Assembly (NCBI GenBank): GCA_902521615.1 | Contig: CABYSJ010000003.1 | Location: forward strand, 1-64,000 | Source: an uncultured Pelagibacteraceae bacterium | Lineage (GTDB): Bacteria > Pseudomonadota > Alphaproteobacteria > Pelagibacterales > Pelagibacteraceae | Length of the DNA: 64,000 nt | Reading direction: 5' to 3' | Shown: piece after piece, positions 7,037 through 21,897 of the stretch | Position numbering within the stretch: position 1 is the stretch's first letter | How the letters are laid out: each line of letters starts with the position of its first letter | Made by a program: the position numbers and the translations under genes | The notes under the pieces: model-generated | Told to the model about the DNA's origin: nothing | What the model saw: the letters and a program-made list of their open reading frames with translations, nothing else | Database searches by the model: none

Positions 7037-7324
7037 TTACATTCCCTCAAAAATTATGTGTTCTCTAGTAGCATTATTTTCTAAATGTTTTCTAGCTTCA
7101 ACATACTCTTCAGAATTGTAACAATTTTTTGCTGTTTCAATATCTGGAAATTCTGCAAGTGCTACTCTAACCATTTCTCTGCCTTCTAAAGTTACGTTAT
7201 TTGCACTTCTCGCTATTATTTTTCCAGAATATTTTTCAACCGCTTCTTTTGCTTTAACAGCATATTTTTTAAGTCTTTCGTCGTCTTTTATTTCAGTATA
7301 ATTTGCAACCCAATAAGCTTTCAT
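7037..7324 (-). CDS. DUF1330 family protein
   Basis: 95 residues matching the small ferredoxin-like, dimeric alpha/beta barrel DUF1330 family: an N-terminal AYWVANYTEI strand, then a central EGREMVRVALAEFPDIETAKNCYNS segment spread over two elements, ending in HIIFEGM. The family has no firmly established biochemical role. It has a clear ribosome binding site (rc of tctccttttt, just upstream). It is divergent from the small cytochrome c gene across 43 bases, so it borders but need not belong to the purine island. Confidence 0.8.
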   Translation of the reverse strand: MKAYWVANYTEIKDDERLKKYAVKAKEAVEKYSGKIIARSANNVTLEGREMVRVALAEFPDIETAKNCYNSEEYVEARKHLENNATREHIIFEGM

Positions 7325-7367: not shown

Positions 7368-7691
7368 GTGAAAAAATTATTTTTAAATTTCTTTGGTACA
7401 TCATTATTTTTGATATTTTTATCATTTACCCATGTTAATGCTGATGAATTGTTTAATAAGGGAAAAGAAGTTTTTCTGGGAACTGGAAATTGTGCAGCAT
7501 GTCATATGCTCTCAGATGCTGGATCGAATGCAATGGTTGGTCCAAATTTAAATGAAATTAGACCTGATATTCAAAGAATTATAATGGCAGTTAGAAACGG
7601 TATAGGAGTAATGCCCGCAATGGAGGGTATACTAACTGATGATGAAATAGAGGCAGTTGCGCACTATACCTCTATAGCTGCTGAACAATAA
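7368..7691 (+). CDS. Small secreted class I cytochrome c, possible electron acceptor for PuuD
   Basis: 107 residues: a signal peptide (about 1-25, ending VNA), one haem c site C42-A-A-C45-H46, and an axial methionine region around M82-M85 (GVMPAM). The start is GTG at 7368 with no evident Shine-Dalgarno. A TATGAT -10-like hexamer at 7351-7356 would make the mRNA almost leaderless. It should be a soluble periplasmic electron carrier. It converges on puuE with a 7-base gap, at the edge of the purine catabolic genes, whose PuuD lacks its own cytochrome c domain. A role as PuuD partner is an inference from position; delivery to the cytochrome oxidase is equally possible. Confidence 0.82.
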   Translation: MKKLFLNFFGTSLFLIFLSFTHVNADELFNKGKEVFLGTGNCAACHMLSDAGSNAMVGPNLNEIRPDIQRIIMAVRNGIGVMPAMEGILTDDEIEAVAHYTSIAAEQ

Positions 7692-7698
7692 TAAAAAT

Positions 7699-8598
7699 TT
7701 AACTGTAATTTTTTATCCAATGTTTAGCTATATCTACTCTTTTGCAGATCCAAATATCCTTAAATTTTGTGATGTAATTTAAAAATTTTTTAAGAGACTG
7801 TATTCTACCAGGTCTTCCAATTAATCTACAATGCAAGCCAACCGACATCATCTTTGGCGAATTTTTTCCTTCCTCATAAAGGGCATCGAAACTATCTTTT
7901 AAATAATTATAAAATTGTTCACCCGAATTAAATCCTTGATTGGTTGCAAACCTCATATCATTGTTATCAAGTGTGTAAGGAACCATTAGTTGTTTTTTAT
8001 TACCTTTTTTTATCCAGTAAGGAAGATCATCACTGTATGTATCGCTACAGTATAAAAAACTACCATTATTAATTACTAAATCTAAAGTATTTTTGCTACA
8101 CCTACCTGTGTACCAACCAGCAGGTTGACTACCAAAAATCTTTTTTATAGATTTGACTGCAAGCTCCATATCATTCTTTTCTTTTTTCTTTGATACATTT
8201 TGATAGTCAATCCATCTCCACCCATGACTTGCAACTTCATAATTTGCTTTTTTTATAGCCGAACATACTTCTTTATTTCTTTCCAATGCCATACCAACTC
8301 CAAAAATAGTAAGTGGAATTTTCTTTTTATTAAATAGATCATGAATTCTCCAAAACCCTCTTCTTGATCCATATTCATAAATTGATTCCATATTTAAGTG
8401 TCGACCTTTAATTGGTTTTGCTCCTATAATTTCTGATAAAAATACTTCTGAAGTTTTATCACCATGAAGAGTGCAATTCTCTGCTCCCTCCTCGTAATTA
8501 AGCACAAATTGCAAAGCTAACTTAGCATTACCAGGCCACTTTACCTTAACTTTTTTGGAACCATATCCAACTAAATCTCTTGGGTAGTTTTTTTTCAT
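7699..8598 (-). CDS. puuE: Allantoinase, polysaccharide-deacetylase type (PuuE)
   Basis: 299 residues with the hallmarks of the PuuE branch of the NodB/polysaccharide deacetylase superfamily: YPRDLVGYG at the N-terminus, FVLNYEEGAENC, ESIYEYGSRRGFWR, the SHGWRW metal/active-site motif and DDLPYW. This family opens the ring of allantoin to allantoate without being related to amidohydrolase-type allantoinases. It is the last gene of a four-gene minus-strand operon in which every junction overlaps by 4 bases (uraD-alc-allA-puuE). That operon position, right after allantoicase and ureidoglycolate lyase, fits the role. Confidence 0.92.
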   Translation of the reverse strand: MKKNYPRDLVGYGSKKVKVKWPGNAKLALQFVLNYEEGAENCTLHGDKTSEVFLSEIIGAKPIKGRHLNMESIYEYGSRRGFWRIHDLFNKKKIPLTIFGVGMALERNKEVCSAIKKANYEVASHGWRWIDYQNVSKKKEKNDMELAVKSIKKIFGSQPAGWYTGRCSKNTLDLVINNGSFLYCSDTYSDDLPYWIKKGNKKQLMVPYTLDNNDMRFATNQGFNSGEQFYNYLKDSFDALYEEGKNSPKMMSVGLHCRLIGRPGRIQSLKKFLNYITKFKDIWICKRVDIAKHWIKNYS

Positions 8599-9086
8599 TT
8601 TTTCAAAATAATTTTATCTTTTTTAAATTTATAAATAACAAGATTGTTTCCTTTTCCTTTTCTATCAACAATTAGAAAATTCATATTTTTCATAGAAATC
8701 AACGGAAAGTGCCAAATACCAGCATTGTAATTAACTCCAGTTTGTTTTGGGACTAAAAAGGATTGGATTTTATTTACATCTGGTTTATCTCCTTTTGGTG
8801 CTACAAATACTAAAAATTTTGTATCTTCCATTGGTATAAAGGCTTGGCTTCCCAAAGGATGTTTTTCCATCATGTCAATTTTCATAGGAAACCTTCTTTT
8901 TTTTGCTTTAAAAATACTAACAATTGCTTTGCCTTTGTTTTTAGATGCGTCTACGTTTATCAAATTATCAAATCTTTTTGCATACCCATCATTGATATTT
9001 ATAGGATTTTTCTTTGACGTATCTATTAATTGACCAAATTTAGAAAAATTTTTTTTAGTAATTTTTTTTGCTTTTATTATTTTCAT
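8595..9086 (-). CDS. allA: Ureidoglycolate lyase
   Basis: 163 residues of the AllA cupin-like family. Recognisable elements are the N-terminal KKITKKNFSKFGQLID segment, HPLGSQAFIPM in the centre, FLVFVAP, and NAGIWHFPL with the active-site-region histidine. It splits ureidoglycolate into glyoxylate and urea, the last step of the pathway encoded here. Its partner allantoicase, which makes ureidoglycolate, is the gene directly upstream with a 4-base overlap. The C-terminus is Lys-rich, like most proteins of this genome. Confidence 0.9.
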   Translation of the reverse strand: MKIIKAKKITKKNFSKFGQLIDTSKKNPININDGYAKRFDNLINVDASKNKGKAIVSIFKAKKRRFPMKIDMMEKHPLGSQAFIPMEDTKFLVFVAPKGDKPDVNKIQSFLVPKQTGVNYNAGIWHFPLISMKNMNFLIVDRKGKGNNLVIYKFKKDKIILKK

Positions 9087-10069
9087 CTCACAAAATTTCC
9101 AAATGCTCTTATTCTTGAAATTCCACCGTCTGGATAGATATTTATTTTAAGATAATTTTCCTTACTTCTCTTAATTAAGAATTTTTTAAAAATATGTTTC
9201 TTGTGAGCTGACAGTTTTGACTTATTTAAAATAAATTTCCAATTTTTTGAATTATTGACAATTGATTTATTGGACAGATCTTTTGAAATGCTTGCAGTTT
9301 GAATTGAACAACTATCGGGGTAGTTTCCTTTAAAATGATGAGTGTCTATCTCTAGTTTTTTTATTAATCCTGGTTTTCCAAATTTTATTATAAGCCAATC
9401 AAAGTTTTTTCCTCTACTTCTTCTAGTTTCCCAACCATCTCCCATATTTTTTCCTTTACCAGGTGCTATGATATTTTCAGCCCTGCCGAAATGTTCATTA
9501 TTACAACCAATAATTGAAGCGCCATTTAAAACAGATGTAAGGTTGATAGTTTTATTATTTAAAAAGTTTTTCTCCATTTCAATTTTTCCATAAAGCCTTA
9601 GTCTTGCAACTCCACCATCTGGAAAAATGTTTAGTCTTATATAATTAAAAACAGATTTGTTGTTTGATTTGAAGCTATGGTTTCGGCTTGGCCCAAGTTT
9701 TTTTTTGCTCAGTAAAGAAATCCATTTTGTTTTCTTATTAGGCTTTGTTTTACTTAAGCAACCCTCTAACGAAGCATGTGTGGGCTGATTTCCATTGAAA
9801 TGTGTTGTGTCAATGTCTATATCAAATATCTTTCCAGGTTTACCAAGTTTTAAAATTAAATAATCAAAACCTTTTGATCTTCTTCTCCTTGTTTCCCATC
9901 CATCCATCCATTTACCATGTTTGTCAAATAGTCCATCTTTAAAAACTGGAGTTTCGATGTTTAATATTCTGTGAGCAGCCGCAAAAAAATCGTCAGTCTT
10001 AAATATCACTTTAGATCCAATTCTTGGATCCGCTAAGTTAATCATTTTTGCACTTATAAATTTTTTCAT
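9083..10069 (-). CDS. alc: Allantoicase
   Basis: 328 residues built from two copies of the allantoicase jelly-roll domain. The first (about 15-160) has the motif DGWETRRRR and IDIDTTHFNGN. The second (about 185-326) has DGWETRRSRG and LEIDTHHFKGN. Both end in NIFPDGG/NIYPDGG followed by R-LR-YG or RIRAFG. The enzyme hydrolyses allantoate to ureidoglycolate and urea. It is flanked by uraD upstream and allA downstream with 4-base overlaps. The choice of allantoicase plus lyase, rather than allantoate amidohydrolase, means nitrogen leaves as urea, not ammonia. Confidence 0.94.
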   Translation of the reverse strand: MKKFISAKMINLADPRIGSKVIFKTDDFFAAAHRILNIETPVFKDGLFDKHGKWMDGWETRRRRSKGFDYLILKLGKPGKIFDIDIDTTHFNGNQPTHASLEGCLSKTKPNKKTKWISLLSKKKLGPSRNHSFKSNNKSVFNYIRLNIFPDGGVARLRLYGKIEMEKNFLNNKTINLTSVLNGASIIGCNNEHFGRAENIIAPGKGKNMGDGWETRRSRGKNFDWLIIKFGKPGLIKKLEIDTHHFKGNYPDSCSIQTASISKDLSNKSIVNNSKNWKFILNKSKLSAHKKHIFKKFLIKRSKENYLKINIYPDGGISRIRAFGNFVR

Positions 10070-10563
10070 TTTTTATTTATTTTATTCAAACGAAAGGTTG
10101 CGATTTTTTTTACTTGTTTTTTCGCTTCAAGGAATTCACTTTCTACATCACTTTGTATTCTTTGTCTAAAATTATTCAAAATTTCATTTTTATCTTTGCC
10201 TTTTACAGCAATTATAAAAGGAAAATTAAACTTTTTTTTATATTCTGAATTTAATTTTTTAAATTCTTCATATTCATCATTAGAACATTGGTTTAATTTT
10301 GCAGAGGCTTGTTCTGATATAGATTCAGAGGTCATTTTTTTTGCTATAGCAAGCTCAGGATGAGCATTTAAAATCTCTAAAATTTTATTTTTTTCGTAAT
10401 TTTCATAAATATCAAGCATTTTAAACACAATATCTTCAAAGTTTTTAAATGGTTTTAACTCAAAAGCTTCCATAGCAACTGACTCAGTTTTTTCAAAAAC
10501 ATTACCAAATATAGACAAAAAATCAGACTTGTTAAGATCGTTAATGTTATCTATTGTTCTCAT
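10066..10563 (-). CDS. uraD: 2-oxo-4-hydroxy-4-carboxy-5-ureidoimidazoline (OHCU) decarboxylase
   Basis: 165 residues, all helical, with the active-site motif HPEL (H68-L71), SEQASAKL, LNSEYKKKFNFPFI and the C-terminal RIQSDVESEFLEAKKQVKKIA helix in pieces. It decarboxylates OHCU stereospecifically to S-allantoin. It is the first gene of the minus-strand uric acid operon, divergent from uraH, the enzyme that makes its substrate, across only 46 bases. The length matches stand-alone UraD, with no fused HIU hydrolase domain. Confidence 0.93.
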   Translation of the reverse strand: MRTIDNINDLNKSDFLSIFGNVFEKTESVAMEAFELKPFKNFEDIVFKMLDIYENYEKNKILEILNAHPELAIAKKMTSESISEQASAKLNQCSNDEYEEFKKLNSEYKKKFNFPFIIAVKGKDKNEILNNFRQRIQSDVESEFLEAKKQVKKIATFRLNKINKK

Positions 10564-10609
10564 ATAACTTTTAAAAATTTAAGTTTGAAATTAAAGATAC
10601 TATAATTTT
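10564..10609. promoter_or_regulatory. Divergent promoter region between the two purine catabolic operons
   Basis: These 46 bases separate uraD (minus) from uraH (plus) and must drive both operons unless promoters lie inside the genes. A TATAAT hexamer at 10601-10606 faces uraH and ends only 3 bases before its ATG, so transcription would start at or just after the A of the ATG, with no leader. I see no good -35 at 17 bases and no clear operator. No regulator gene lies next to it. Confidence 0.4.
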
Positions 10610-10960
10610 ATGACAAAGCTCACAACTCATGTTTTAGATGTGTATTCTGGTAAACCTGGCAAAGGTATCCTAGTTGATTTGTTTTATATTAATAATTCAG
10701 AACGAAAAAAATTAACGTCAATAAAACTCAATGATGATGGTAGAGCTAATTCACCATTAGCAGAGGGAGATGTTTTCATTAAGGGTAAATATGAATTAAT
10801 TTTTCATATTGGTGACTATTTTAAAAATATATCTTCAGCTAGCGATGTACCATTCTTGGATGATGTTGTTATAAGATTTGGTATTTCAGATCCCTCACAG
10901 CATTATCATGTTCCTTTACTTGTTTCACCTTGGAGTTATTCTACTTATAGAGGTAGTTAA
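10610..10960 (+). CDS. uraH: 5-hydroxyisourate hydrolase (transthyretin-related)
   Basis: 116 residues with the complete HIU hydrolase signature: N-terminal LTTHVLDVYSGKPG with the catalytic-site histidine H7, the central DVVIRFGI strand, and the C-terminal YHVPLLVSP and YRGS tetrapeptide at 113-116 that separates the enzyme from true transthyretin. It hydrolyses 5-hydroxyisourate, the direct product of urate oxidation, to OHCU. There is no signal peptide, so it is cytoplasmic. It opens the plus-strand operon; its TAA abuts the GTG start of xdhA with no gap. Confidence 0.95.
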   Translation: MTKLTTHVLDVYSGKPGKGILVDLFYINNSERKKLTSIKLNDDGRANSPLAEGDVFIKGKYELIFHIGDYFKNISSASDVPFLDDVVIRFGISDPSQHYHVPLLVSPWSYSTYRGS

Positions 10961-12397
10961 GTGATATCGAGTTCTGTTAAATTTCTATTAAATGACAAGC
11001 TTATAGTAATCAAAAATCCTGATCCAAATCAAACGTTACTTAATTATATTAGAACTGAATTAAAAAAGACCGGAACTAAAGAGGGATGTTCAGAAGGTGG
11101 TTGTGGAGCATGTACAATTGTTTTAGGTGAATTAGTCAATAATAAGATTATATATAAAGCAATTAATTCCTGTATTTCATTTGTTCCATCATTAAATGGT
11201 AAACAACTTTTAATTGTAGAAGATTTGGTTTCCAAAGATGGCAAACTTCACCCTGTACAAGATGCGATGGTAAAATTTCATGGTTCCCAATGCGGTTTCT
11301 GTACACCAGGATTTGTTATGGCTTTATTTTCAATGTTTAAAAATAACAAAAATCTTAACAATGAATTAATAACAGACTCTATATCAGGTAATTTATGTCG
11401 TTGCACTGGATATAGACCTATAATAGATGCTGCAAAAAGTCTAGACAAGAAAAACAGGAATGATCAATTTAGTAAAAATAATAATAAAGTTATTCAATTA
11501 TTAAAAAAAATTAAACCAAAAAATATTTATATTAAAAAAGATGATAAAATTTATTTTTCACCAAAGAATATTAAGGATTTAAAAAATATAATTAAAAAAT
11601 ACTCTAACTTTAGTTTTCTTGCAGGTGGAACAGACTTATCCTTAAAAGTTACAAAAGAAAGAAAAGAAATTCCTTTTATAATTGATTTAAAAGAAATAAA
11701 AGAATTAGATTTTATAAAAGTAAATAAAAATTACCTTGAAGTTGGCTCCTCTACACCTTTAATAAAATTTGAAAAAGAAATTAAAAAACATTATCCAGAT
11801 TTTTATTTAGTTCTTAAAAGATACGGTTCTGTTCAAATTCGAAATGTAGGAACTATAGGTGGTAACATTGCAACAGCATCTCCGATAGGTGATACATTGC
11901 CAATTTTGTTATCTTTAAATGCAGAAATTTTAATCGAAAGCTTCAATCAAAGAAAAGTTATTCCTATAAATAATTTTTTCCTTGATTATAGAAAAACTAA
12001 ATTAAAAAAGAATGAATTTATTCACTCAATAAAAATACCATTATTTAAGAAAAATATTTTTAAAGCATTTAAAATATCAAAAAGATTTGATGATGATATT
12101 TCATCTGTTTGTGGATCTTTTAATTTTGAAATTGATAAAAATAAAATTAAAGAGGTTTTTATTGCTTTTGGAGGTATGGCAGCTGTACCAAAAAGAGCTA
12201 AAGCCTGTGAGAAAATTCTTAAGAATAAACCTCTTAATTTAAGTACTTTTAATCAAGCCAAAAATTATCTTGATAAAGACCTAAGTCCTATAGGGGATAT
12301 GAGAGCAAGTAAAGAATATAGACTAGAGATAGCAAAAAATTTATTGATGAAATGTTTCGTAGAAATAGATTCTAATAAGCTAACAAGAATTAATTAA
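10961..12397 (+). CDS. xdhA: Xanthine dehydrogenase, iron-sulfur/FAD subunit (small subunit)
   Basis: 478 residues, starting with GTG directly after the uraH stop. An N-terminal plant-type [2Fe-2S] domain has C43, C48, C51 and C71. A second [2Fe-2S] helical domain has C111, C114, C146 and C148. A vanillyl-alcohol-oxidase-type FAD domain follows (about 175-340, with FLAGGTDLSLK and TIGGNIATASPIGDTLP), then the CO-dehydrogenase flavoprotein C-terminal domain. It passes electrons from the molybdenum subunit to NAD+. It abuts xdhB with no gap, and all eight cluster cysteines are intact. Confidence 0.95.
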   Translation: MISSSVKFLLNDKLIVIKNPDPNQTLLNYIRTELKKTGTKEGCSEGGCGACTIVLGELVNNKIIYKAINSCISFVPSLNGKQLLIVEDLVSKDGKLHPVQDAMVKFHGSQCGFCTPGFVMALFSMFKNNKNLNNELITDSISGNLCRCTGYRPIIDAAKSLDKKNRNDQFSKNNNKVIQLLKKIKPKNIYIKKDDKIYFSPKNIKDLKNIIKKYSNFSFLAGGTDLSLKVTKERKEIPFIIDLKEIKELDFIKVNKNYLEVGSSTPLIKFEKEIKKHYPDFYLVLKRYGSVQIRNVGTIGGNIATASPIGDTLPILLSLNAEILIESFNQRKVIPINNFFLDYRKTKLKKNEFIHSIKIPLFKKNIFKAFKISKRFDDDISSVCGSFNFEIDKNKIKEVFIAFGGMAAVPKRAKACEKILKNKPLNLSTFNQAKNYLDKDLSPIGDMRASKEYRLEIAKNLLMKCFVEIDSNKLTRIN

Positions 12398-14701
12398 ATG
12401 AGCAAAGAGAACTATATTAATGATGTAAGACCACATGATAGTGCTTATAAGCATGTAAGTGGATACGCTGAATACACTGACGACATTAATGAACCAAAAA
12501 ATACAATTTATGGTGCTATCGGTTTAAGTAAAAAAGCTCATGCAATAATCAAAAAAATAGACTTAAGCGATGTAAAAAAAAGTGAAGGGGTGATATCAGT
12601 AGTCACTCAAAGTGATATCTCAGGAAGGAACGATGTAGGCCCTGTTTTTGATGGTGATCCAATATTTCCAGATAAAAAAGTTGAGTTTTTTGGTCAACCA
12701 TTGTTTGCTGTAGCTGCCACAACTACTGAACTTGCAAGAAAAGCAGTATTAAAGGCAAAAATCACTTATAAAGATTTAAAACCAGTTATCACAATAAAAG
12801 ATGCTTTAAATAAAAAACAGTTTTTATTTAAGCCTAGAAAAATTAAAAAAGGAAACCCTTCTAAGAAAATTAAAAATTCAAAATATAATTTGAGAGGAAA
12901 CTTTACAACTGGAAGTCAAGAACACTTTTATTTAGAGGGTCAGGCAGCGTTTGTTATACCTAAAGAAGATGATAATTTTTTAGTTTACAGTTCAACACAA
13001 CATCCTTCTGAGACACAACAATTAATTGCAAAAATGTTTAATCAGAAAAGTAATTCTATAAATGTTGAAGTAAGAAGAATTGGAGGTGGATTTGGAGGGA
13101 AAGAGACAAATTTTATGACCGCATGTATTTGTGCGTTGTTGGCAAAAAAAACAGGACAGCCTGTGAAATTAAGACTAGATAGAGATGATGATATAATTTT
13201 GACTGGTAAAAGGCATGAATTTTTATCTGAATACGAAGTTGGATTTAATGATAAAGGAATTATTGAAGGATTAAAAATTAACTTATCATCAAATTGTGGA
13301 ATGTCGCCTGATTTATCAGCAGCAATAAATGAAAGAGCTCTTCTTCATATAGACAATGCGTATTACATATCAGATATCGAGGTAACAAACAATTTATGCA
13401 AGACAAATATTCCAACTTCAACTGCATTTAGAGGCTTTGGTGGAAATCAAGGAATGATGGCTATAGAAAATGTTATTGATAATATTTCAAGGTATTTAAA
13501 AATAGATCCTATTCAAGTTCGAAAGAAAAATTTTTATCAAAAAGATAAAAAAAATATAACTCACTATGGAATGACTATTGAAGACAATGTGATTAATGAA
13601 ATATTTAAAAATTTAGAAAATAAATCTAATTATAAGAAAAGATATTCAGAGATAAAAAAATTCAATGAAAAAAATAAATTTAAAAAGAAGGGTATAGCTA
13701 TTACACCAGTAAAATTTGGGATTTCATTTACAACAATTCATTTAAATCAAGCTGGTGCTTTAGTGCATATTTACACAGATGGAAGTGTGTACTTGAACCA
13801 TGGTGGTATAGAAATGGGTCAAGGGACCCATACAAAAATAGCTCAACTAGTGGCCAATTCTTTGGGATTACCCTATAGTTTAGTTCATATTTCATCAACA
13901 AATACAGCTAAGGTTCCAAATACTTCAGCTAGCGCTGCATCTTCAACCACAGACCTTAATGGTGCTGCAGCATTAAATGCAGTAGCAAAAATTAAGTTAA
14001 ATTTAGAAAAATTTATCAAAAAAAAATATAAGATTTATAATCAAGAAGCAATTTATAAGGATCAATATATAATATTTGGAAACCGACAGTTTGAATTTAA
14101 AAGTATTATTAAAGAAGCATATTTAAATAGAATTTCTCTTTCATCCTCAGGTTATTATTCAACGCCAAAAATAAACTTTGATAAAAAAAAATTTAGAGGA
14201 AGACCATTTTATTACTTTTGTTATGGTGCAGCTGTTTCAGAAGTGACTATTGATACATTGACTGGTGAAAATGTCTTAGAAAGAGTTGATATTTTGCATG
14301 ATGCAGGAAAACCAATAAATCCAGCACTTGAATTAGGTCAGATCGAAGGGGGTTTTGTTCAAGGACAAGGTTGGTTAACAATTGAAGAACTAAATTGGAA
14401 ATCAAATGGTCAGATTACAACTTTCTCTCCATCAACGTATAAAATACCTGCCGTAAGTGATATTCCAAAAAAATTTAATGTAGAAATTTTTAAAGAGGGA
14501 ATAAATAAAGAAAAAGTTGTTAATAAAGCAAAGACAACAGGTGAACCTCCTCTAATGTTAGCCATGAGCGTTTTTTATGCAATTAAAGATGCAGTTGCCT
14601 CAGTTGGAAATTATCAGCTCGCACCAGAACTTAATGCCCCAGCAACACCTGAAAGAATTTTAATGAGTATTAACAAAATTAGAAATAAATTAAAAAGTTA
14701 A
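12398..14701 (+). CDS. xdhB: Xanthine dehydrogenase, molybdopterin-binding subunit (large subunit)
   Basis: 767 residues. An N-terminal aldehyde oxidase/xanthine dehydrogenase a/b hammerhead domain (about 15-130) is followed by the molybdenum-cofactor domain with GGGFGGKE (229-236), TAFRGFGGNQG and GGIEMGQGTHTK. The active-site glutamate E716 is in GEPPLMLA, as in authentic xanthine dehydrogenases. It hydroxylates hypoxanthine and xanthine to urate. It sits between xdhA and guaD (2-base gap). The XdhC maturation factor is not present in this window, so it must be elsewhere or dispensable. Confidence 0.95.
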   Translation: MSKENYINDVRPHDSAYKHVSGYAEYTDDINEPKNTIYGAIGLSKKAHAIIKKIDLSDVKKSEGVISVVTQSDISGRNDVGPVFDGDPIFPDKKVEFFGQPLFAVAATTTELARKAVLKAKITYKDLKPVITIKDALNKKQFLFKPRKIKKGNPSKKIKNSKYNLRGNFTTGSQEHFYLEGQAAFVIPKEDDNFLVYSSTQHPSETQQLIAKMFNQKSNSINVEVRRIGGGFGGKETNFMTACICALLAKKTGQPVKLRLDRDDDIILTGKRHEFLSEYEVGFNDKGIIEGLKINLSSNCGMSPDLSAAINERALLHIDNAYYISDIEVTNNLCKTNIPTSTAFRGFGGNQGMMAIENVIDNISRYLKIDPIQVRKKNFYQKDKKNITHYGMTIEDNVINEIFKNLENKSNYKKRYSEIKKFNEKNKFKKKGIAITPVKFGISFTTIHLNQAGALVHIYTDGSVYLNHGGIEMGQGTHTKIAQLVANSLGLPYSLVHISSTNTAKVPNTSASAASSTTDLNGAAALNAVAKIKLNLEKFIKKKYKIYNQEAIYKDQYIIFGNRQFEFKSIIKEAYLNRISLSSSGYYSTPKINFDKKKFRGRPFYYFCYGAAVSEVTIDTLTGENVLERVDILHDAGKPINPALELGQIEGGFVQGQGWLTIEELNWKSNGQITTFSPSTYKIPAVSDIPKKFNVEIFKEGINKEKVVNKAKTTGEPPLMLAMSVFYAIKDAVASVGNYQLAPELNAPATPERILMSINKIRNKLKS

Positions 14702-14703
14702 AA

Positions 14704-15174
14704 ATGGAAGATAAAAAAAAATTTATGGAAAAAGCCATTGAACTTTCAATTAAAAGTGCGAATAATATAGGTGGTCCCTTCGGAAGTGTTATAGTAAAGG
14801 ATCAAAAGATTATTGCAGAGGGCTCTAACAAAGTTACTTCTACAAATGATCCAACTGCTCATGGAGAAATAGTAGCAATTCGAGAAGCCTGCAAAAATTT
14901 AAATACTTTTGATCTTTCTGGATGTGAGATTTATACATCTTGTGAACCTTGCCCGATGTGTCTTTCAGCAATTTATTGGTCAAGATTAGATAAAATATAT
15001 TATGCAAATACAAGAGACGATGCAAAAAATATAGATTTTGATGACTCTTTTATTTATACAGAAATTCCAAAAAAAATTGATGATAGAAAAATTAAAATGG
15101 TGCAAATGCTTAGAGAAGAAGCTTTAAAAGCGTTTGAAATCTGGGATAAAAAAGTAGATAAAATAAAGTACTGA
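14704..15174 (+). CDS. guaD: Guanine deaminase (cytidine-deaminase fold)
   Basis: 156 residues, the same length as Bacillus subtilis GuaD and very similar in layout. The zinc site is H53-x-E55 (TAHGE) plus C83 and C86 in EPCPMC. The C-terminal segment DDSFIYTEI is characteristic of guanine deaminase rather than tRNA adenosine deaminase. It converts guanine to xanthine, feeding the xanthine dehydrogenase encoded just upstream. Its TGA overlaps the puuD ATG (TGATG). A TadA-like role is unlikely given the operon context. Confidence 0.9.
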   Translation: MEDKKKFMEKAIELSIKSANNIGGPFGSVIVKDQKIIAEGSNKVTSTNDPTAHGEIVAIREACKNLNTFDLSGCEIYTSCEPCPMCLSAIYWSRLDKIYYANTRDDAKNIDFDDSFIYTEIPKKIDDRKIKMVQMLREEALKAFEIWDKKVDKIKY

Positions 15175-16082
15175 TGGAATTCTTACCTTACACAATTAAA
15201 TGGTTAGAAGTTATTTTAAGATGGGGTCATGTAGTATTTGCAATATTATGGGTAGGTAACAGTTTTTTATTTAATTACTTAGACAATAATTTAAATAAAA
15301 ATATAACTAGTGATGATGTAGATGGAGAGGGGTATCTGATGCATTCCGGTTTTTTTTATAAACTTTCGAGGTTAAAAACCTCGCCACCGCAGGATTATTT
15401 AAATAGATTAGTAATTTTTAAATGGCAAAGTTACCTTACTTTTGTAACAGGAATGTTGCTATTAGTCGTAATTTATTATTATAACGCTGGTGTATTAATG
15501 GTTGATAAACGTGTCCTGTTAATGCCACCTAGTTATGCTATTATTATTTCGCTTTTATCATTGATTGTAGCTTGGTTTATTTATGATCTTTTATGTAAAT
15601 CAAAATTGGTTGAAAATAATGCACTATTTATATCTACAGCAATTATTTTATTAGCAGCTGTTTCCTTTAGTTTGACAAAATTATTTGGACCAAAATTTGC
15701 AATTTTAAGTGTTGGATTAATTATAGGAACCAATATGTTTGGCAATGTTTTTACAGTAATTATACCAAATCAAATGAACATCATCAGCAGTAGTGAAAGA
15801 GGTGAAAAATTTGATATGAGTCTTTCTCTAGCAGCTAAACAGAGGTCAATTCATAATAATTATTCCACTTATTTAGTATTGTTTATAATGCTTTCTGGAC
15901 ACTCAAGTTTCTTAGTTTATCATCAATATAATTGGTTAATATTATGCGCATTAGCAGTCATTACTGGAGTAGCACGACATTATTTTAACTTAAGAGGAAG
16001 AAACATTCACAGGTTGTATATTTTAATATCTTCAATAATTGCACTTATCGTTCTTGCAGTTTTAGTTTTATTATTTAAATAA
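15174..16082 (+). CDS. puuD: Membrane urate oxidase PuuD, catalytic membrane part without cytochrome c domain
   Basis: 302 residues with about eight membrane helices, matching the N-terminal membrane domain of PuuD: RWGHVVFAILWVGNS, GGFYK-like SGFFYKLSRLK, FKWQSYLTF, NVFTVIIPNQ and AAKQRSIHNNY. PuuD oxidises urate to 5-hydroxyisourate and sends the electrons to a cytochrome c instead of making peroxide. The usual form carries a C-terminal haem c domain; this one ends after the last helix (VLLFK) with a clean stop. No CxxCH occurs in it. The product is the substrate of UraH, encoded at the operon's start. Confidence 0.9.
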   Translation: MEFLPYTIKWLEVILRWGHVVFAILWVGNSFLFNYLDNNLNKNITSDDVDGEGYLMHSGFFYKLSRLKTSPPQDYLNRLVIFKWQSYLTFVTGMLLLVVIYYYNAGVLMVDKRVLLMPPSYAIIISLLSLIVAWFIYDLLCKSKLVENNALFISTAIILLAAVSFSLTKLFGPKFAILSVGLIIGTNMFGNVFTVIIPNQMNIISSSERGEKFDMSLSLAAKQRSIHNNYSTYLVLFIMLSGHSSFLVYHQYNWLILCALAVITGVARHYFNLRGRNIHRLYILISSIIALIVLAVLVLLFK

Positions 16083-16099
16083 ATAGATATTAAAAGATT

Positions 16100-16624
16100 A
16101 TGACTGAAAAAATAATAGTCAGCTGGGATGATTACAACAAGACCGTTGAGAAGTTAGCAATCCAAATTGATGAAAGTGGATATAAACCAACAATACTGGT
16201 TGGCATCATGCGTGGGGCAGCACCGATGATAGATGTATTAAGCAGAATATTTAAATTAAAATGTGCATATCTTGCAGTTGAGTCTTATAGTGGTAAAGGA
16301 GTGGAAGATGAGCAAGGTGATATTGTTTTTTCAAGGGAAATGAGTTCTATAGCACCTAATATGGGTGGTAAAATACTTTTATGTGATGATTTATCTGATA
16401 CAGGAATAACTTTCAACAAAAGTATAGATTGGTTAAAAAAATATGAACCGATAAAAGATAAAATAGAAGATATTAAAACTGCTACGTTGTTTAAAAAAAA
16501 GAAATCAACATTTGAGCCAGATTTTTGTGCGAAAAAACTTGCTGGTAATCCTTGGATTGTGCAGCCCTTCGAAATTTATGAAGAATTAAGAATTGAAGAA
16601 ATTAAAAAAAAACATCAAATATAA
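16100..16624 (+). CDS. Purine phosphoribosyltransferase (xanthine-guanine type)
   Basis: 174 residues of the type I phosphoribosyltransferase fold. The PRPP-binding loop is LLCDDLSDTGITF (about 93-105), preceded by the flexible hood strand ILVGIMRGAAPMIDVLS. The C-terminal NPWIVQPFE segment resembles xanthine/guanine PRTs. It would convert imported or internally released xanthine, guanine or hypoxanthine to the nucleotide, competing with the catabolic enzymes of the same operon. The gene follows puuD after 17 bases and is closed by a strong hairpin terminator. The exact base preference is inferred from context. Confidence 0.8.
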   Translation: MTEKIIVSWDDYNKTVEKLAIQIDESGYKPTILVGIMRGAAPMIDVLSRIFKLKCAYLAVESYSGKGVEDEQGDIVFSREMSSIAPNMGGKILLCDDLSDTGITFNKSIDWLKKYEPIKDKIEDIKTATLFKKKKSTFEPDFCAKKLAGNPWIVQPFEIYEELRIEEIKKKHQI

Positions 16625-16652
16625 AAAAGGCCAGTTAAATAACCGGCCTTTT
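16625..16652. terminator. Bidirectional intrinsic terminator between the purine operon and the BMP transporter operon
   Basis: A perfect 8-base stem, AAAAGGCC at 16625-16632 and GGCCTTTT at 16645-16652, encloses a 12-base loop that can add a GTTA/TAAC inner stem. Flanking A and T runs make it work in both directions. It sits between convergent operon ends, 1 base after the phosphoribosyltransferase stop. Confidence 0.88.
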
Positions 16653-16674
16653 AAATTTTTATAAGTTTAAGAGC

Positions 16675-17745
16675 TTACTTCGGTATATCTCCTTCAACAC
16701 CTTTAACATAAGTCATCATACCTGCTAGCATACCATCATCTGCAGTTTTCCCTTCTGCTACCATTAAATTCCCTTTTTGGTCATAAATTGGTCCAGTGAA
16801 AGAATGAACTTTACCAGATGCTAAATCTGCTTGTAGTTTTTTAACTTTTGCTTGTAGGTCACTAGGCATTTGAGAATCTAAACCTGAGATTACTACCATG
16901 CCATCACCTATACCGTGCCATGTATCTTTTTGACTCCATGTGCCATTTGCAACAGCTTTAACTCTATCGACATAATATGGTCCCCAGTTATTCTCAACTG
17001 AAGTTAATACAGCCTTTGGTGCAAACTTATCCATATCACTCGCTTGTCCAAAAGCATATACTCCTGCTTTTTCAGCCATTTGAACAATTGCTGTACTGTC
17101 TGTATGTTGAGCAATTACATCAGCACCTTGATCAATTAAAGCTTTTGCTGCTTCTGCTTCTTTACCTGGATCGTACCATGTGAAAGCCCAAACAATTTTA
17201 GTTTTAATATTTGGGTTAACTTTTTGAGCTGCTAAAGTAAATGAATTGATACCTCTTATTACTTCAGGTATTGGAAAAGATGCAACATATCCAATCACAT
17301 TAGATTTAGTCATAGTTCCAGCAATTGTTCCCAAAATAGTTCTACCCTCATAGAATCTAGCTGCGTAAGTTGCAACATTTGGATGCTCTCTTTTATATCC
17401 AGTAGCATGTTCAAATTTTACATTTGGAAACTCTTTTGCAACTTTGTTAGTAGGGTTCATATATCCAAAACTAGTTGTAAAGATAATGTCATGACCAGAA
17501 TTAGCTAATTGTCTAAGAACCCTTTCAGCATCAGCACTTTCTGGAACACCTTCCACGTATGTTGTTTTAAATCCGGCAGCTTCAACAGCTTTTCTACCTA
17601 CATCATGCTGATAAGTCCATCCATGGTCACCAGTTGGACCAATATAAACAAATGCTGCTTTTACATCTTTTGCAACTGCAGCCACAGTTAATGTAAATAA
17701 TAAAACTAAAGAAGAGACGAAAGAACGAATTAAAAATTTATGCAT
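16675..17745 (-). CDS. BMP-family ABC transporter substrate-binding protein (nucleoside/purine type)
   Basis: 356 residues: a signal peptide (about 1-25, ending AVAK), then the BMP/PnrA-like periplasmic-binding fold with AAFVYIGPTGDHGW near the N-terminus, EGVPE, IIFTTSFGYM and DVIAQHTDST. BMP proteins of this kind bind purine nucleosides or related compounds. No lipobox cysteine is seen, so it is a free periplasmic protein. It is the last gene of the importer operon, with a 77-base gap upstream that could hold an extra promoter, and an evident AGGGG ribosome binding site. Confidence 0.88.
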   Translation of the reverse strand: MHKFLIRSFVSSLVLLFTLTVAAVAKDVKAAFVYIGPTGDHGWTYQHDVGRKAVEAAGFKTTYVEGVPESADAERVLRQLANSGHDIIFTTSFGYMNPTNKVAKEFPNVKFEHATGYKREHPNVATYAARFYEGRTILGTIAGTMTKSNVIGYVASFPIPEVIRGINSFTLAAQKVNPNIKTKIVWAFTWYDPGKEAEAAKALIDQGADVIAQHTDSTAIVQMAEKAGVYAFGQASDMDKFAPKAVLTSVENNWGPYYVDRVKAVANGTWSQKDTWHGIGDGMVVISGLDSQMPSDLQAKVKKLQADLASGKVHSFTGPIYDQKGNLMVAEGKTADDGMLAGMMTYVKGVEGDIPK

Positions 17746-17822
17746 AAATTTATTTCCCCTTTTGGTTTTTTAATTAATTAAATTTAAATTAAATTATCTA
17801 AAAAAAAATGATTATTTTAAAA

Positions 17823-18755
17823 TTAATTGTCTTTATGAAAAGATTTCCCCAAGGAACTAGGAGTACTCAGTCTTATTTTTCTACTATCACGAGAAATTAC
17901 AACTAAAACTATTATTGTTACTATGTAAGGCAGGGCCGTTAAAAATTGAACAGGAATTCTTACTCCGATTGCTTGCATATGAAATTGAATAATGGTCAAT
18001 CCACCAAAAATCATTGCACCGATTAAAATTTTAATAGGGTTCCACGTTGAGAAAACCACTAGAGCCAATGCGATCCAACCTCTTCCACCTGTCATATTTT
18101 CAATCCACTGCGGAGTATAAATCATTGACAAATACGCCCCTGCAAGACCACACATTGCGCCCCCATAAAGTATACAAGCGTAACGCACAAACCTTACATT
18201 TATTCCTTGATTAGAGGCAGACTCAGGCGAGTCTCCTACAGCTCTAACAATTAACCCAATTTTTGTTTTTTTTAAAAAGTAGCTAGTTATGAAGGGTAGT
18301 GCAAAAGCAAAATAAAAAACTATTGAATGACCAAACAATATTGGACTTAAAAGTGGTATTGTGTCTTTTAAACCTTCAAACAAAACAGGAAACTCTTTTC
18401 CAGGAATACCCACAAAGTTTTTTCCAATCATTGCAGAAATTCCTATTCCAAAAATAGTTAGAGCTAAACCAGTAGCAACATGATTTGTAATTAATGTTTG
18501 GGTAAGAAATGCAAAAATTGTTGAAATTAAAACTCCAGCTAACATTGCACCAAAAACTGCTATAATTAAACTTCCAGTAACCGTCATTAGTGCGAAGCCC
18601 GAAATAGCTCCAATGATCATCATTCCTTCAACACCAAGGTTTAGAACCCCAGATCTTTCAGTAATTAATTCACCACAAGACGCCAAAATCAAAGGAACTG
18701 CAGAAGCCATTATAGATGCAATTATTAGTCCAACAAAATTTACATCTACTATCAT
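17823..18755 (-). CDS. ABC transporter permease, BMP-type importer (second permease)
   Basis: 310 residues with about eight to ten membrane helices. The LNLGVEGMMIIGAISGF motif near residues 38-55 is diagnostic of branched-chain/BMP-type permeases, and TGGRGWIALALVVFSTWNP is the cytoplasmic coupling region. It forms a heterodimer with the neighbouring permease. It overlaps that gene by 4 bases. The organisation ATPase - permease - permease - binding protein is as in the B. subtilis guanosine importer (yufNOPQ). Confidence 0.88.
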   Translation of the reverse strand: MIVDVNFVGLIIASIMASAVPLILASCGELITERSGVLNLGVEGMMIIGAISGFALMTVTGSLIIAVFGAMLAGVLISTIFAFLTQTLITNHVATGLALTIFGIGISAMIGKNFVGIPGKEFPVLFEGLKDTIPLLSPILFGHSIVFYFAFALPFITSYFLKKTKIGLIVRAVGDSPESASNQGINVRFVRYACILYGGAMCGLAGAYLSMIYTPQWIENMTGGRGWIALALVVFSTWNPIKILIGAMIFGGLTIIQFHMQAIGVRIPVQFLTALPYIVTIIVLVVISRDSRKIRLSTPSSLGKSFHKDN

Positions 18756-19816
18756 TTTTTTGAACCTATAAATTTAAATTTGAAAAAGAGTAAATAGTCA
18801 GAAGCAAGAAGAAAAAATAAAATCATCCCTTGAAAAACCTGACCTGTATATTTTGGTATTTGCATAAAGATTTGAGCCGTTTCAGCACCCAGATAAGTTA
18901 TTGCAACAACTAGCGATGCAAAAATTATTCCCACAGGATGTAAGCGACCTAAAAATGCAACAATAATCGCAGTAAATCCATAATCTGGAGATACTTCTCT
19001 ATGAAGCTGTCCAATCGGTCCAGTTATTTCTCCTACGCCTGCTAGACCTGCACAAGCTCCACTTATTAAAAAAACCAGGATAATCATTTTTTTACCTTTG
19101 TAGCCAGCATATTTTGCTGTTTTTAAACTAAAACCTGAAACTTTCATTTGGAAACCCAAATATGTTTTATAAAAAACAAACCAACTAATAACCACCGCAG
19201 CTAATGCTAAAAATATTCCTGCGTGAATTCTTAGTCCTTCAAATAATAAAGGAAGTCTTGCAGAGTCACTGAACTGTCTAGTTTCAGGAAAATTAAATCC
19301 TTCTGGATTACTCCAAGGACCGACAACAAGATAATCTAAAATTAATTTTGAAACATATACCAACATAAGACTTACTAATATCTCATTAGTATTGAAGTAC
19401 GTTTTTAATATTGCAGGTATTGATGCATATATCATACCACCAATTGCGCCAGCTAATATTACTATTGGTAGAATATAGAAACCTTCTTGATCATAAAATA
19501 ATAATGCAACTCCTCCTGAAACTATAGCCCCAAAAGTTAATTGCCCTTCTGCTCCAATATTCCAATTGTTACTTTTAAAACAAAAAGATAAACCAATCGC
19601 TATTAAACAAAGTGGTGTGGCTTTTAATAGTAATTCACTGAAACCATATTTATCTGCAATTGGAACTATGAAAAAAAATTTTAGGGCTTCAAATGGTTTA
19701 AAACCTAAAATATAAAATATTATACCTCCAGCTATTAATGTGAGAAAAATAGCCAGGACAGGTGTAAAGAAAAATATAGCTTTTGAAGGTTGATCTCTTT
19801 TTACAATTTTAATCAA
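18752..19816 (-). CDS. ABC transporter permease, BMP-type importer (first permease)
   Basis: 354 residues with about nine to ten membrane helices. The conserved NIGAEGQLTFGAIVSGGVAL segment occupies the position of LNLGVEGMM in the partner permease, and GPIGQLHREVSPDYGFTAII is the coupling region. This longer permease type pairs with the shorter one in BMP importers. It overlaps the ATPase gene (4 bases) and the second permease gene (4 bases), so all three should be co-translated. Confidence 0.88.
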   Translation of the reverse strand: MIKIVKRDQPSKAIFFFTPVLAIFLTLIAGGIIFYILGFKPFEALKFFFIVPIADKYGFSELLLKATPLCLIAIGLSFCFKSNNWNIGAEGQLTFGAIVSGGVALLFYDQEGFYILPIVILAGAIGGMIYASIPAILKTYFNTNEILVSLMLVYVSKLILDYLVVGPWSNPEGFNFPETRQFSDSARLPLLFEGLRIHAGIFLALAAVVISWFVFYKTYLGFQMKVSGFSLKTAKYAGYKGKKMIILVFLISGACAGLAGVGEITGPIGQLHREVSPDYGFTAIIVAFLGRLHPVGIIFASLVVAITYLGAETAQIFMQIPKYTGQVFQGMILFFLLASDYLLFFKFKFIGSKK

Positions 19817-21303
19817 TTTCCTCCTCCCATAAGTATCCCAAGTTTCTCAGAGGTAACATCCTCAGCATTCATTATTTTTGATAATTTTCCTCTATGGATT
19901 ACTGAAATTTTGTCACTTAATTTTAACAACTCATCAGTGTCTGTTGATATTAATATTATTGATTTATTTTGTTCATTTATTTTAATTAATGTTTCATGAA
20001 TATAATTTATAGCTCCAACGTCCAAACCCCATGTAGGATTGAAACAAATTAATAAATCTGGAGATGTTATTAATTCTCTTCCAATAATTAATTTTTGTAA
20101 ATTTCCTCCAGATAAAAATTGGCTTTTTAAATCTATATTGTCAGTGTTTACGTTAAATTCTGAAATTATTTTTTTTGAATGCTCTTTAATTTTGCTTTCA
20201 TTTATTAATCCATTATTAAAAAAATTTGAGGATTTGAAATTGTTTAGAGCTACATTTTCAAAAATTGCCATTTGTGGAATAGCAGCTTGTTCAAGCCTAT
20301 CTTCTGGAGAAAAAGCCATTAAATATTCCCTTCTTTCTTGAGGATTTAAATCCCCAATAAAATTTTTATTAAATTCTATGGAATTCTTATTTGATATAAT
20401 TTCACCACTTAACACTTGAAATAATTCACTCTGGCCATTTCCTGATATACCAGCGATTCCTAAACATTCCCCTCTATTTAGAGAAAAATTAATGTCAACT
20501 AAGTTTGTTTCAAAAGGATCTTCACTTGTAAAATTAAGATTTGTTATTTTAATTAATTGTTCTGACGAAGTATTTTCCTTTTTTTTCTTAATTGTTTTTA
20601 AATCCTGACCTACCATTTTGTTAGCAAGAGATTCTATATTTTCATTATTGATTTGGCTTACAGAGACCAATTTTCCTCTTCTCATCACAGCAACTTCATC
20701 ACAAAGTTGCATAACTTCCTTTAGTTTATGGGTTATATAAATAATTAATATTCCTTCCTCTGAAAATTTTTTTAATGATAAGAATAATTCACTGGTTTCT
20801 TGCTCTGTTAATACCGATGTGGGTTCATCCATAATTAAAACTTTTGGGCTTCTAATTAGGCATCTTATTATTTCTACTTTTTGTTTTTGACCTGCTGATA
20901 AGTTGAGAACAGGAACATCAAGATCAACTGAAAAATTGTATTTTTTCATGATTGTATCTATTTTTTCTTTTAAATTTTCTCTTTGTTCATCTGAGTCTAT
21001 TATTAAGTTTTCAAATACAGACAAAGTTTCAAAAAGATTAAAATGCTGGAATACCATTCCAATATCATTTTTTTTTGCATCTGATGGTGAATTAAGTTTA
21101 AGAATATTTTTATTTAAATAAATTTTACCTTCATCAGGAATGACTACACCTGAGAGAATTTTAACAAGTGTAGATTTTCCAGCACCATTTTCTCCAAGAA
21201 GAGCGTAAATTTTACCACTATTAAATTCGAGTGAAACATTGTCATTTGCAATACACCCAGGATATATTTTAGTTACATTTGAAATTTTAAGGTTTGTATT
21301 CAT
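19813..21303 (-). CDS. ABC transporter ATPase with two nucleotide-binding domains, BMP-type importer
   Basis: 496 residues with two ABC domains in tandem. Domain 1 has Walker A GENGAGKST (37-45), signature LSAGQKQK and Walker B VLIMDEPTSVL. Domain 2 has a degenerate Walker A (GISGNGQSE), signature LSGGNLQK and an altered Walker B (LICFNPTWGLD) without the catalytic DE pair. This asymmetry is normal for sugar/nucleoside-type fused ATPases. It powers the two permeases. It lies 3 bases after a deaminase gene, tying the importer to base deamination. Confidence 0.92.
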   Translation of the reverse strand: MNTNLKISNVTKIYPGCIANDNVSLEFNSGKIYALLGENGAGKSTLVKILSGVVIPDEGKIYLNKNILKLNSPSDAKKNDIGMVFQHFNLFETLSVFENLIIDSDEQRENLKEKIDTIMKKYNFSVDLDVPVLNLSAGQKQKVEIIRCLIRSPKVLIMDEPTSVLTEQETSELFLSLKKFSEEGILIIYITHKLKEVMQLCDEVAVMRRGKLVSVSQINNENIESLANKMVGQDLKTIKKKKENTSSEQLIKITNLNFTSEDPFETNLVDINFSLNRGECLGIAGISGNGQSELFQVLSGEIISNKNSIEFNKNFIGDLNPQERREYLMAFSPEDRLEQAAIPQMAIFENVALNNFKSSNFFNNGLINESKIKEHSKKIISEFNVNTDNIDLKSQFLSGGNLQKLIIGRELITSPDLLICFNPTWGLDVGAINYIHETLIKINEQNKSIILISTDTDELLKLSDKISVIHRGKLSKIMNAEDVTSEKLGILMGGGN

Positions 21304-21306
21304 TAA

Positions 21307-21897
21307 TTAATTTAATGGTATAGAATTTCCATCCTTATTTTCCTGATATTGATTTGATAATTTTTGATATTTTTTCTTAATTTCATCTAATTGATTAATA
21401 ATACTATCTTTTTTTGAAGTAGGTAAATTTTCAATAAGTAAATTTATATTTTGACTTTTCCAATAATAATTTTCTTTATTATATTCTCCATCATTAATTT
21501 TAAATACTTCCTTGAGTATATTTAAATCATGTGGAATATTAAATTCTTCGTTTGTGGCAGTATATGGAAACAAATAATAAAAATTATCAAATCCAGAAAA
21601 TGTGATTGCGCTCAAACACATACTACAGGGCTCATGTGAACTTAAAAACATGCAGTCTATTTCTTTTGGTCTTGTATTTGCATCTAATTCATAAAATTTT
21701 TTAAGAGTATGCATTTCTCCATGCCACAATGGATTTTCTATTTCATTGTTTGTTTCAGCAACTACAAGTGATAAATCATCTTTTTTAATTATTGCTGCCC
21801 CAAATATTTTACTACCTTTAGCAACACCTTTTTCAGTTAAGGGTAAAACTTCTTTTAAAAATATTTTTAGTATCTTTTCTAGGGCTTTTTCATTCAT
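21307..21897 (-). CDS. Cytidine-deaminase-fold nucleoside/base deaminase of unknown substrate
   Basis: 196 residues with the zinc-dependent deaminase site H59-x-E61 (WHGE) and P90-C91-x-x-C94 (HEPCSMC). It differs from the guaD product: it has 40 extra C-terminal residues that are polar and charged, a different N-terminus, and no DDSFIY motif. It is the first gene of the importer operon, so its substrate is probably what the importer brings in or a direct product of it (for example adenine, guanine, cytosine or a nucleoside). I cannot choose between these from sequence. Confidence 0.78.
   Translation of the reverse strand: MNEKALEKILKIFLKEVLPLTEKGVAKGSKIFGAAIIKKDDLSLVVAETNNEIENPLWHGEMHTLKKFYELDANTRPKEIDCMFLSSHEPCSMCLSAITFSGFDNFYYLFPYTATNEEFNIPHDLNILKEVFKINDGEYNKENYYWKSQNINLLIENLPTSKKDSIINQLDEIKKKYQKLSNQYQENKDGNSIPLN

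Follow-up and report, generated by a model that had tools for sequence, protein, structure and literature searches.

A purine-degradation island occupies positions 7368-21897 of the window, by which we mean the whole stretch analysed here, 64,000 nucleotides of contig CABYSJ010000003.1 from an uncultured Pelagibacteraceae bacterium (assembly GCA_902521615.1). All the gene families named in an earlier note on this DNA were found there, as 15 genes in three successive same-strand blocks plus one further gene (Table 1). The first block, on the minus strand (7699-10563), carries puuE, ureidoglycolate lyase, allantoicase and uraD. The second, on the plus strand (10610-16624), carries uraH, xdhA, xdhB, guanine deaminase, puuD and a phosphoribosyltransferase, and the third, again on the minus strand (21897-16675), a second deaminase followed by the ATPase, two permeases and BMP-type binding protein of an ATP-binding cassette (ABC) importer. 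Most genes inside each block overlap or abut. The sixteenth gene, missing from the earlier note, stands at 7368, where the interval starts, and encodes a 107-residue c-type cytochrome. The island is a known one. Its urate oxidase, PuuD, lacks the cytochrome c domain, and we consider it probable that in this genus PuuD is usually paired with the separate, secreted, SorU-like cytochrome as electron acceptor.

Table 1. Genes of the purine island, with the matches that support each assignment.
Feature	Position	Strand	Evidence
Free c-type cytochrome, 107 residues	7368..7691	+	signal-like N terminus, one CXXCH; PF13442 45.6 bits; NF052248 (SorU) 83.9 bits (cut-off 100)
PuuE allantoinase	7699..8598	-	TIGR03212 485.6 bits, above cut-off
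Ureidoglycolate lyase (glyoxylate + urea released)	8595..9086	-	PF04115 169.3 bits; best NCBIfam equivalog 179 bits, below cut-off 230
Allantoicase	9083..10069	-	TIGR02961 392.1 bits, above cut-off
UraD, 2-oxo-4-hydroxy-4-carboxy-5-ureidoimidazoline (OHCU) decarboxylase	10066..10563	-	TIGR03164 160.4 bits, above cut-off
UraH, hydroxyisourate hydrolase	10610..10960	+	TIGR02962 122.9 bits, above cut-off
XdhA, xanthine dehydrogenase FeS/FAD subunit	10961..12397	+	TIGR02963 574.5 bits, above cut-off
XdhB, xanthine dehydrogenase molybdopterin subunit	12398..14701	+	TIGR02965 1100.3 bits, above cut-off; end-to-end alignment with 1jro chain B
Guanine deaminase, cytidine deaminase (CDA) fold	14704..15174	+	best solved relative 1wkq guanine deaminase 166 bits vs best TadA 80 bits
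PuuD urate oxidase, membrane domain only, 302 residues	15174..16082	+	PF06181 286.6 bits; no cytochrome c domain
Purine-type phosphoribosyltransferase (salvage)	16100..16624	+	PF00156 91.6 bits; nearest solved 4z1o, purine phosphoribosyltransferase GpT-2, 42.5 bits
BMP-type substrate-binding protein of ABC importer	16675..17745	-	PF02608 179.9 bits; nearest solved 3s99, 6pi5
ABC importer permease	17823..18755	-	PF02653
ABC importer permease	18752..19816	-	PF02653
ABC importer ATPase, double	19813..21303	-	PF00005, two stretches
Second CDA-fold deaminase	21307..21897	-	PF00383 39.3 bits; weak kinship to 1wkq, E 2.7e-6

Each family named in the earlier note was confirmed by an NCBIfam or Pfam profile or by a match to a solved structure. 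NCBIfam curated cut-offs were exceeded by PuuE, allantoicase, UraD, UraH, XdhA and XdhB, and the remaining proteins reached Pfam gathering scores. XdhB retains, in its alignment with 1jro chain B, the GGKE and GEPP stretches, which we take to be catalytic. The proposed layout of three operons agrees with the three blocks; the total of twelve genes was wrong, the note's own list numbering 15. The pathway had been called near-complete, which is too weak, since the window has a gene for each reaction between guanine and glyoxylate (deaminase, xanthine dehydrogenase, urate oxidase, UraH, UraD, allantoinase, allantoicase and ureidoglycolate lyase) and other parts of the genome encode XdhC-type proteins and urease. 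The predicted conversion of guanine or xanthine to glyoxylate and two urea likewise holds as far as gene content goes, and is already in print. Purines would enter through the BMP-type importer, guanine would be deaminated to xanthine, and xanthine dehydrogenase would produce urate. PuuD, UraH and UraD would then lead from urate to allantoin, and PuuE, allantoicase and ureidoglycolate lyase from allantoin to glyoxylate and two urea, with the phosphoribosyltransferase providing a salvage side route.

This route is already known because the island has been reported by Haro-Moreno 2020 (PMC7318151), by Braakman 2025 (PMC11698098) and in PMC12636525, and the pathway as such adds nothing to print. 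The main text of the first describes a gene cluster for aerobic purine degradation that belongs to genomospecies Ia.3/V, with HIMB083 as reference. That of the second gives the gene set in the legend of its Fig. 3, infers glyoxylate, NADH and urea as products, reports that about 18-22% of SAR11 genomes carry genes of purine catabolism and about 5% carry urease, and associates nitrogen-harvesting genes with an ABC transporter. In the text of the third, an offshore SAR11 genus carries xdhAB and nupNOPQ, and urease in 6 of 8 genomes.

The assignment of the window to SAR11 stands: the loci kept by a genome scan with PuuD, the best 80 of 210 with a PuuD relative, all came from Pelagibacteraceae (80/80, PuuD identity 95-98%). 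The interval from the HhH DNA glycosylase gene to puuD was readable in 57 of these 80, with the presence of PuuD and UraD as selection conditions. UraH, XdhA, XdhB, the phosphoribosyltransferase and the BMP protein were each found in all 57, and PuuE, ureidoglycolate lyase and allantoicase each in 56; all 57, which are close kin of the window chosen for PuuD similarity, also carry the free cytochrome. The gene order of the island was kept in the SAR11 loci compared. Counts of the second deaminase and of the two permeases were set aside as unreliable because paralogs cross-hit at the threshold used. This set overlaps with a set of 250 genomes of the genus, so the two were never summed; the 102 SAR11 PuuD loci considered below draw on both.

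The window PuuD has a full-length membrane domain and ends after it. Residues 6-297 align with positions 2-293 of the 295 in the PF06181 profile (E 3.2e-85), and no cytochrome match was found in the 302 residues. The CXXCH motif was absent from PuuD at all 102 SAR11 loci (79 distinct proteins); it was present near the C terminus in 32 of 33 PuuDs read from Alphaproteobacteria outside the family, the exception being genome G273. Frame lengths gave the same picture. Measured from stop to stop, the PuuD frame had 302-308 codons in 63 of the 66 genomes of the genus that encode it. Of the remaining three, two lie at contig ends (G461, G619) and one is an apparent run-on into the phosphoribosyltransferase in G627, where the two genes seem to form one frame of about 450 codons (L193:3844-5150). 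Family-wide, 22 of 147 genomes gave a strong PuuD match, with frames of 248-306 codons. In a class-wide sample, a match at E 1e-30 was obtained in 65 of 289 genomes, the window's own included; the other 64 genomes contributed 65 rows, of which 64 had frames of 395 codons or more and the remaining one, from G273, had 308. A Caulobacter genome used as a control also matched PF06181.

Despite the loss of its cytochrome, the membrane part of the SAR11 protein looks constrained. Seventy membrane-domain columns are identical in at least 31 of 32 fused PuuDs, and the window protein keeps 52 of them, including His19, His57, His227, His243, Arg16 and Arg224; 45 of the 70 are conserved in 95% or more of the 79 distinct SAR11 sequences, and the short PuuD of G273 keeps 62. 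A structure prediction for PuuD was discarded (mean predicted local distance difference test score 42, from 27 near-identical rows). As to G273, which lies outside the family, its 303-residue PuuD without cytochrome c (L170:9771-10682) may be a second loss or an assembly artefact, and a nearby free cytochrome was sought in vain, no CXXCH protein occurring among the open reading frames listed around the gene. In the genome of the window, a short DUF989/Urate_ox_N protein of 200 residues is encoded between uvrA-like and secF-like genes (L099:6241-6843), and a similar short match was seen in more than 100 of the 147 family genomes. We found no paper on a cytochrome-less PuuD in SAR11, in a search outside which lay most subscription journals, figures and supplements. 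The word "cytochrome" has no use in the main text, figures and supplements aside, of PMC7318151 and PMC11698098, and the three uses in the text of PMC12636525 concern plastocyanin and one reference title, none the island. A SAR11 PuuD lacking its cytochrome, which we have not seen described before, is thus possibly new.

We next consider the distribution of the free cytochrome. Among the 250 genomes of the genus, searched at E 1e-20, PuuD was found in 66 and the free cytochrome in 57; 53 had both, 13 PuuD only, 4 the cytochrome only and 180 neither. The cytochrome was therefore present in 53 of 66 genomes with PuuD versus 4 of 184 without, for which the Fisher value of 8e-37 ignores shared descent and so is no measure of independent evidence. 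Both genes were on one contig in 45 of the 53, always on the same strand, with a spacing of 5.14-5.16 kb in 12 and 7.49-7.55 kb in 33; in the short-spaced loci that were read (G530, G627), puuE, the lyase and allantoicase do not lie between them. Three further genomes (G502, G544, G638) carry the cytochrome at the island edge on a broken contig. In all, the cytochrome was found in 48 of the 57 readable PuuD loci of the genus, nine PuuD genomes being undecided because of a contig end or broken order (G446, G453, G483, G532, G576, G603, G619, G643, G674). As for the four cytochrome-only genomes, the gene lies beside aprA-type genes in G451 and G484, beside a TauE gene in G657, and at a contig end that is the island's edge in G586. 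In the genome of the window, the island cytochrome is the only PF13442 match at E 0.001.

The island has one place in the genus, flanked on one side by the HhH DNA glycosylase gene together with msrA, a gene resembling a transporter and DUF1330, and on the other by lipoprotein, Hsp20 and peptidase genes. A search of 41 genus genomes for the flanking peptidase gene located it in 33, of which 24 lack PuuD at E 1e-20. The adjoining stretch was fetched for 18 of the 24, and both sides were present in 14 (L196-L205, L207, L209, L211, L212); two of the other stretches were too short (L210, L213), one came from a different place (L206) and one was without the HhH side (L208). None of the 14 complete island-less sites contains a catabolic island gene or the free cytochrome, and we therefore reject the view that the cytochrome belongs to this locus irrespective of the island. 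All 14 contain the phosphoribosyltransferase and an importer, the latter represented by a gene of 429-436 residues in 10 and by a BMP ABC importer in 4. One 436-residue example is a Xan_ur_permease by family test, as is a 428-residue protein from a PuuD genome, and the remaining genes of 429-436 residues were assigned as permease-like from length and place. Because both are found at island-less sites, the importer and the phosphoribosyltransferase form a predicted salvage unit, which also occurs where the catabolic insert is missing. The earlier note had credited the island with its own importer: the BMP ABC importer is indeed there, but is not peculiar to catabolism, as 4 of the 14 island-less sites have it. 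Its nearest solved relatives, 3s99 and 6pi5, presumably bind purine-like rings, and we infer that its substrates are purines. The genus thus appears to hold a fixed address for purine import and salvage, at which the importer type is swapped and the catabolic insert is present or absent.

Two observations concern the neighbours of the island. A DUF1330 protein is encoded at its edge, beside the free cytochrome (window 7037-7324), and in the sister genera g3 and g6 a DUF1330-like gene stands directly 3' of PuuD in all seven loci fetched (L102-L108). In G306, an alphaproteobacterial genome of 1.6 Mb, a fused PuuD lies beside a HhH DNA glycosylase-like gene, assigned from appearance, that resembles the one flanking the SAR11 island (L171:5320-7369).

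The best solved relative of the island cytochrome was chain B of 4pw9, also in 4pwa. According to the text of PMC4760952, these structures are the SorT/SorU complex and SorU, and SorU is the natural electron acceptor of the SorT sulfite dehydrogenase. Island cytochromes scored 2.7-6.2 bits with a profile built from the 32 fused PuuD cytochrome domains. With a profile built from SorU-like SAR11 cytochromes, 59 island cytochromes scored 120.6-134.9 bits, and no fused domain exceeded 7.6 bits. On these scores we reject gene fission, in which the free cytochrome would be the split-off domain of PuuD; because island cytochromes match the SorU-like profile and not that of the fused domains, recruitment appears the more likely origin. 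A tree of the cytochromes, built from 60 rows and 109 columns, leaves 25 of its 56 inner branches open and settles no origin; a starred group of 20 island rows includes the cytochrome of the window, and the other 7 island rows scatter.

SAR11 also encodes the SorU-like family beside sulfite dehydrogenase and other oxidoreductases. In a survey of loci L111-L138, L173-L175, L189, L190, L195 and L221, SorU-like cytochromes adjoined varied electron donors, namely SorT-like genes, aprA-type or TauE genes and, once, a GMC oxidoreductase. For the 28 relatives outside the island (L111-L138), the neighbour was a SorT-like gene in 12 cases, aprA-type or TauE genes in 14 and the GMC oxidoreductase in one; L120 had no such neighbour. 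One SorT-like neighbour, with 499 bits, fell short of its cut-off of 570, and one AprA neighbour was above its cut-off. A SAR11 cytochrome adjoining a SorT-like gene (L175) also fell below the NF052248 cut-off, with 80.7 bits.

The sequences show the families of the genes, the domain that PuuD lacks and its co-occurrence with the free cytochrome, to which, we infer, the electrons of PuuD would pass. Urate would be oxidized at the PuuD membrane domain, and the electrons would reach the respiratory chain and its terminal oxidase through the secreted SorU-like protein; in carriers without the island cytochrome, another cytochrome would do the job. With a chance slightly better than even, SAR11 made the one-piece PuuD into a two-component enzyme, the fused cytochrome being lost and its role taken by a plug-in cytochrome of the SorU-like family. 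Several observations weigh against this pairing. The co-occurrence in the genus was not corrected for descent. Nine of the 57 readable genus loci have PuuD without the cytochrome (G568, G584, G622, G660, G497, G514, G589, G630, G673); five of these genomes have a relative elsewhere, which in G497 and G630, the two checked, lies beside aprA-type genes and TauE, and four have none at E 1e-20. An 855-residue CXXCH protein at the G630 locus, considered as a local replacement, proved to be of the sugar epimerase/methyltransferase type. Sister genera g3 and g6 carry PuuD of 273-280 residues (L102-L108), with no cytochrome in the four readable loci (L103, L104, L106, L108). The cytochrome gene is outside the PuuD transcription block, the oppositely oriented puuE-uraD block lying between them, and its divergence is quicker than that of PuuD and closer to that of the flanking genes. 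Family-wide at E 0.001, some cytochrome relative occurs in 49 of 147 genomes, that is, in 19 of 22 with a strong PuuD and in 30 of 125 others; most of those read are SorT- or apr-linked. Finally, island rows do not form one clean group in the tree, where only 1 of 4 label changes is forced by starred branches. Because nine genus loci and four g3/g6 loci have PuuD without a local cytochrome, another acceptor can serve. The nine loci rule out that the cytochrome is strictly required, and the free cytochrome is thus a preferred partner of PuuD, not an obligatory one.

The same loci without a local cytochrome, and the flank-like divergence of the cytochrome, would also fit an unchanged pathway in which the cell's general respiratory cytochrome c takes the PuuD electrons and the island cytochrome is a helpful, replaceable extra or has another role. 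We regard this as unlikely, given the tie of the gene to the island: it is missing from all 14 complete island-less sites and, at E 1e-20, from 180 of 184 PuuD-less genomes, and to our knowledge the other enzymes of the island have no need of a c-type cytochrome. The absence of the domain from all 102 SAR11 PuuD loci, and from G273 with its apparent lack of a nearby CXXCH protein, could instead mean that PuuD functions without any cytochrome and delivers electrons directly to quinone or oxygen. Such a mechanism is very improbable, as most PuuD genes of the genus are accompanied by the cytochrome gene, and the text of Doniselli 2015 (PMC4562309) reports that catalase does not increase with PuuD, describes the cytochrome domain as invariant and cites impaired purine use in a ccmC mutant. 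It is hardly credible that SAR11 PuuD is decaying and that the island stops at urate, as might be read from the 18 of 70 near-invariant positions changed in the window protein. PuuD is among the best-conserved genes of the island, with 95-96% identity in L030, L069 and L080, loci picked by PuuD similarity, versus 53-62% for the cytochrome, and UraH, the next enzyme, is kept in all 57 readable loci among the best 80 of 210.

The use made of the products was examined in the whole assembly of the window (1,195,365 bases in 31 contigs, 91.6% completeness). Urease genes are present on contig C5; the alpha subunit scored 960 bits versus the TIGR01792 cut-off of 680, and the remaining subunits were named from appearance. 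Because of these genes, urea nitrogen is probably recoverable in this genome, urease freeing ammonia from the urea that the island would produce, and the use of purines as a nitrogen source, as the earlier note proposed, gains from them. On contig C10, an XdhC-type pair (PF02625 + PF13478) lies behind another molybdenum enzyme, of the CO- or glyceraldehyde-dehydrogenase type and below both cut-offs; the XdhC-type protein scored 63 bits with the TIGR02964 XdhC model versus a cut-off of 161.6.

A further proposal of the earlier note, that purine-derived glyoxylate could feed glycine, and the stronger reading that this is the main use of the island, are questions separate from the fate of the PuuD electrons. 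Glyoxylate is indeed the end product, and the text of PMC12636525 reports agxt in offshore SAR11 genera and proposes it for glycine and serine. A search of the assembly with the class V aminotransferase family (PF00266) gave seven matches, of which the one strong match was SufS and the other six were three DegT-type proteins, one class I/II enzyme, one Cys/Met pyridoxal phosphate enzyme and one GcvP; none of the seven is of the AGXT type, although at 91.6% completeness the gene may merely be missing from the sequence. An Rfam scan of the 64-kb window gave no match at gathering score, including no purine or glycine riboswitch. The sole glycine riboswitch found in the genome is a tandem pair ahead of apparent gcvT-gcvH-gcvP genes (gcvP confirmed by family test, gcvT and gcvH assigned from appearance), a system that consumes glycine. 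The urease genes point to nitrogen, as does the tie between nitrogen harvest and ABC transporter in the text of Braakman 2025. The link from purines to glycine is thus possible and unsupported in this assembly, and glycine feeding as the main use of the island is improbable. Going by other SAR11 genomes, glyoxylate would more likely be consumed by malate synthase, which the text of PMC10030771 describes as common across all subclades.

The significance of these results is modest, their novelty resting on the urate oxidase and not on the island. The mechanism of PuuD is unsettled, partly since the fused cytochrome was taken as essential. A naturally cytochrome-less PuuD allows the membrane part and the cytochrome to be expressed and tested apart, and reveals which membrane-domain residues are held without the fusion. 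It also makes it unsafe to annotate marine urate oxidases by the rule that every full-length PuuD carries a cytochrome.

Four known systems can be compared with the island. The window has the gene set given in the Fig. 3 legend of Braakman 2025 for the HIMB083-type cluster, in the same organism group, and the published reading also leads from purines to glyoxylate, urea and NADH; the published main texts, however, mention neither the cytochrome gene nor the missing PuuD domain. With its BMP protein, two permeases and double ATPase, the importer resembles BMP-family purine or nucleoside importers, nupNOPQ being named in the text of PMC12636525 for a purine-using offshore SAR11 genus. The island cytochrome is small and monohaem like SorU, its closest solved relative, which is known from the text of PMC4760952 as a free-standing acceptor of an oxidoreductase. 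Unlike SorU, it has no sorT beside it, its neighbours being the DUF1330 gene and puuE, it scores below the SorU cut-off, and its proposed partner is an integral membrane urate oxidase. The PuuD of the window shares its full-length membrane domain and purine neighbours with the PuuD of Doniselli 2015, shown there by gene deletion to be the urate oxidase of Agrobacterium fabrum, and keeps 52 of the 70 residues that are near-invariant in fused PuuDs; it differs from the published protein in having no C-terminal cytochrome c, the domain which that text describes as invariant in PuuD.

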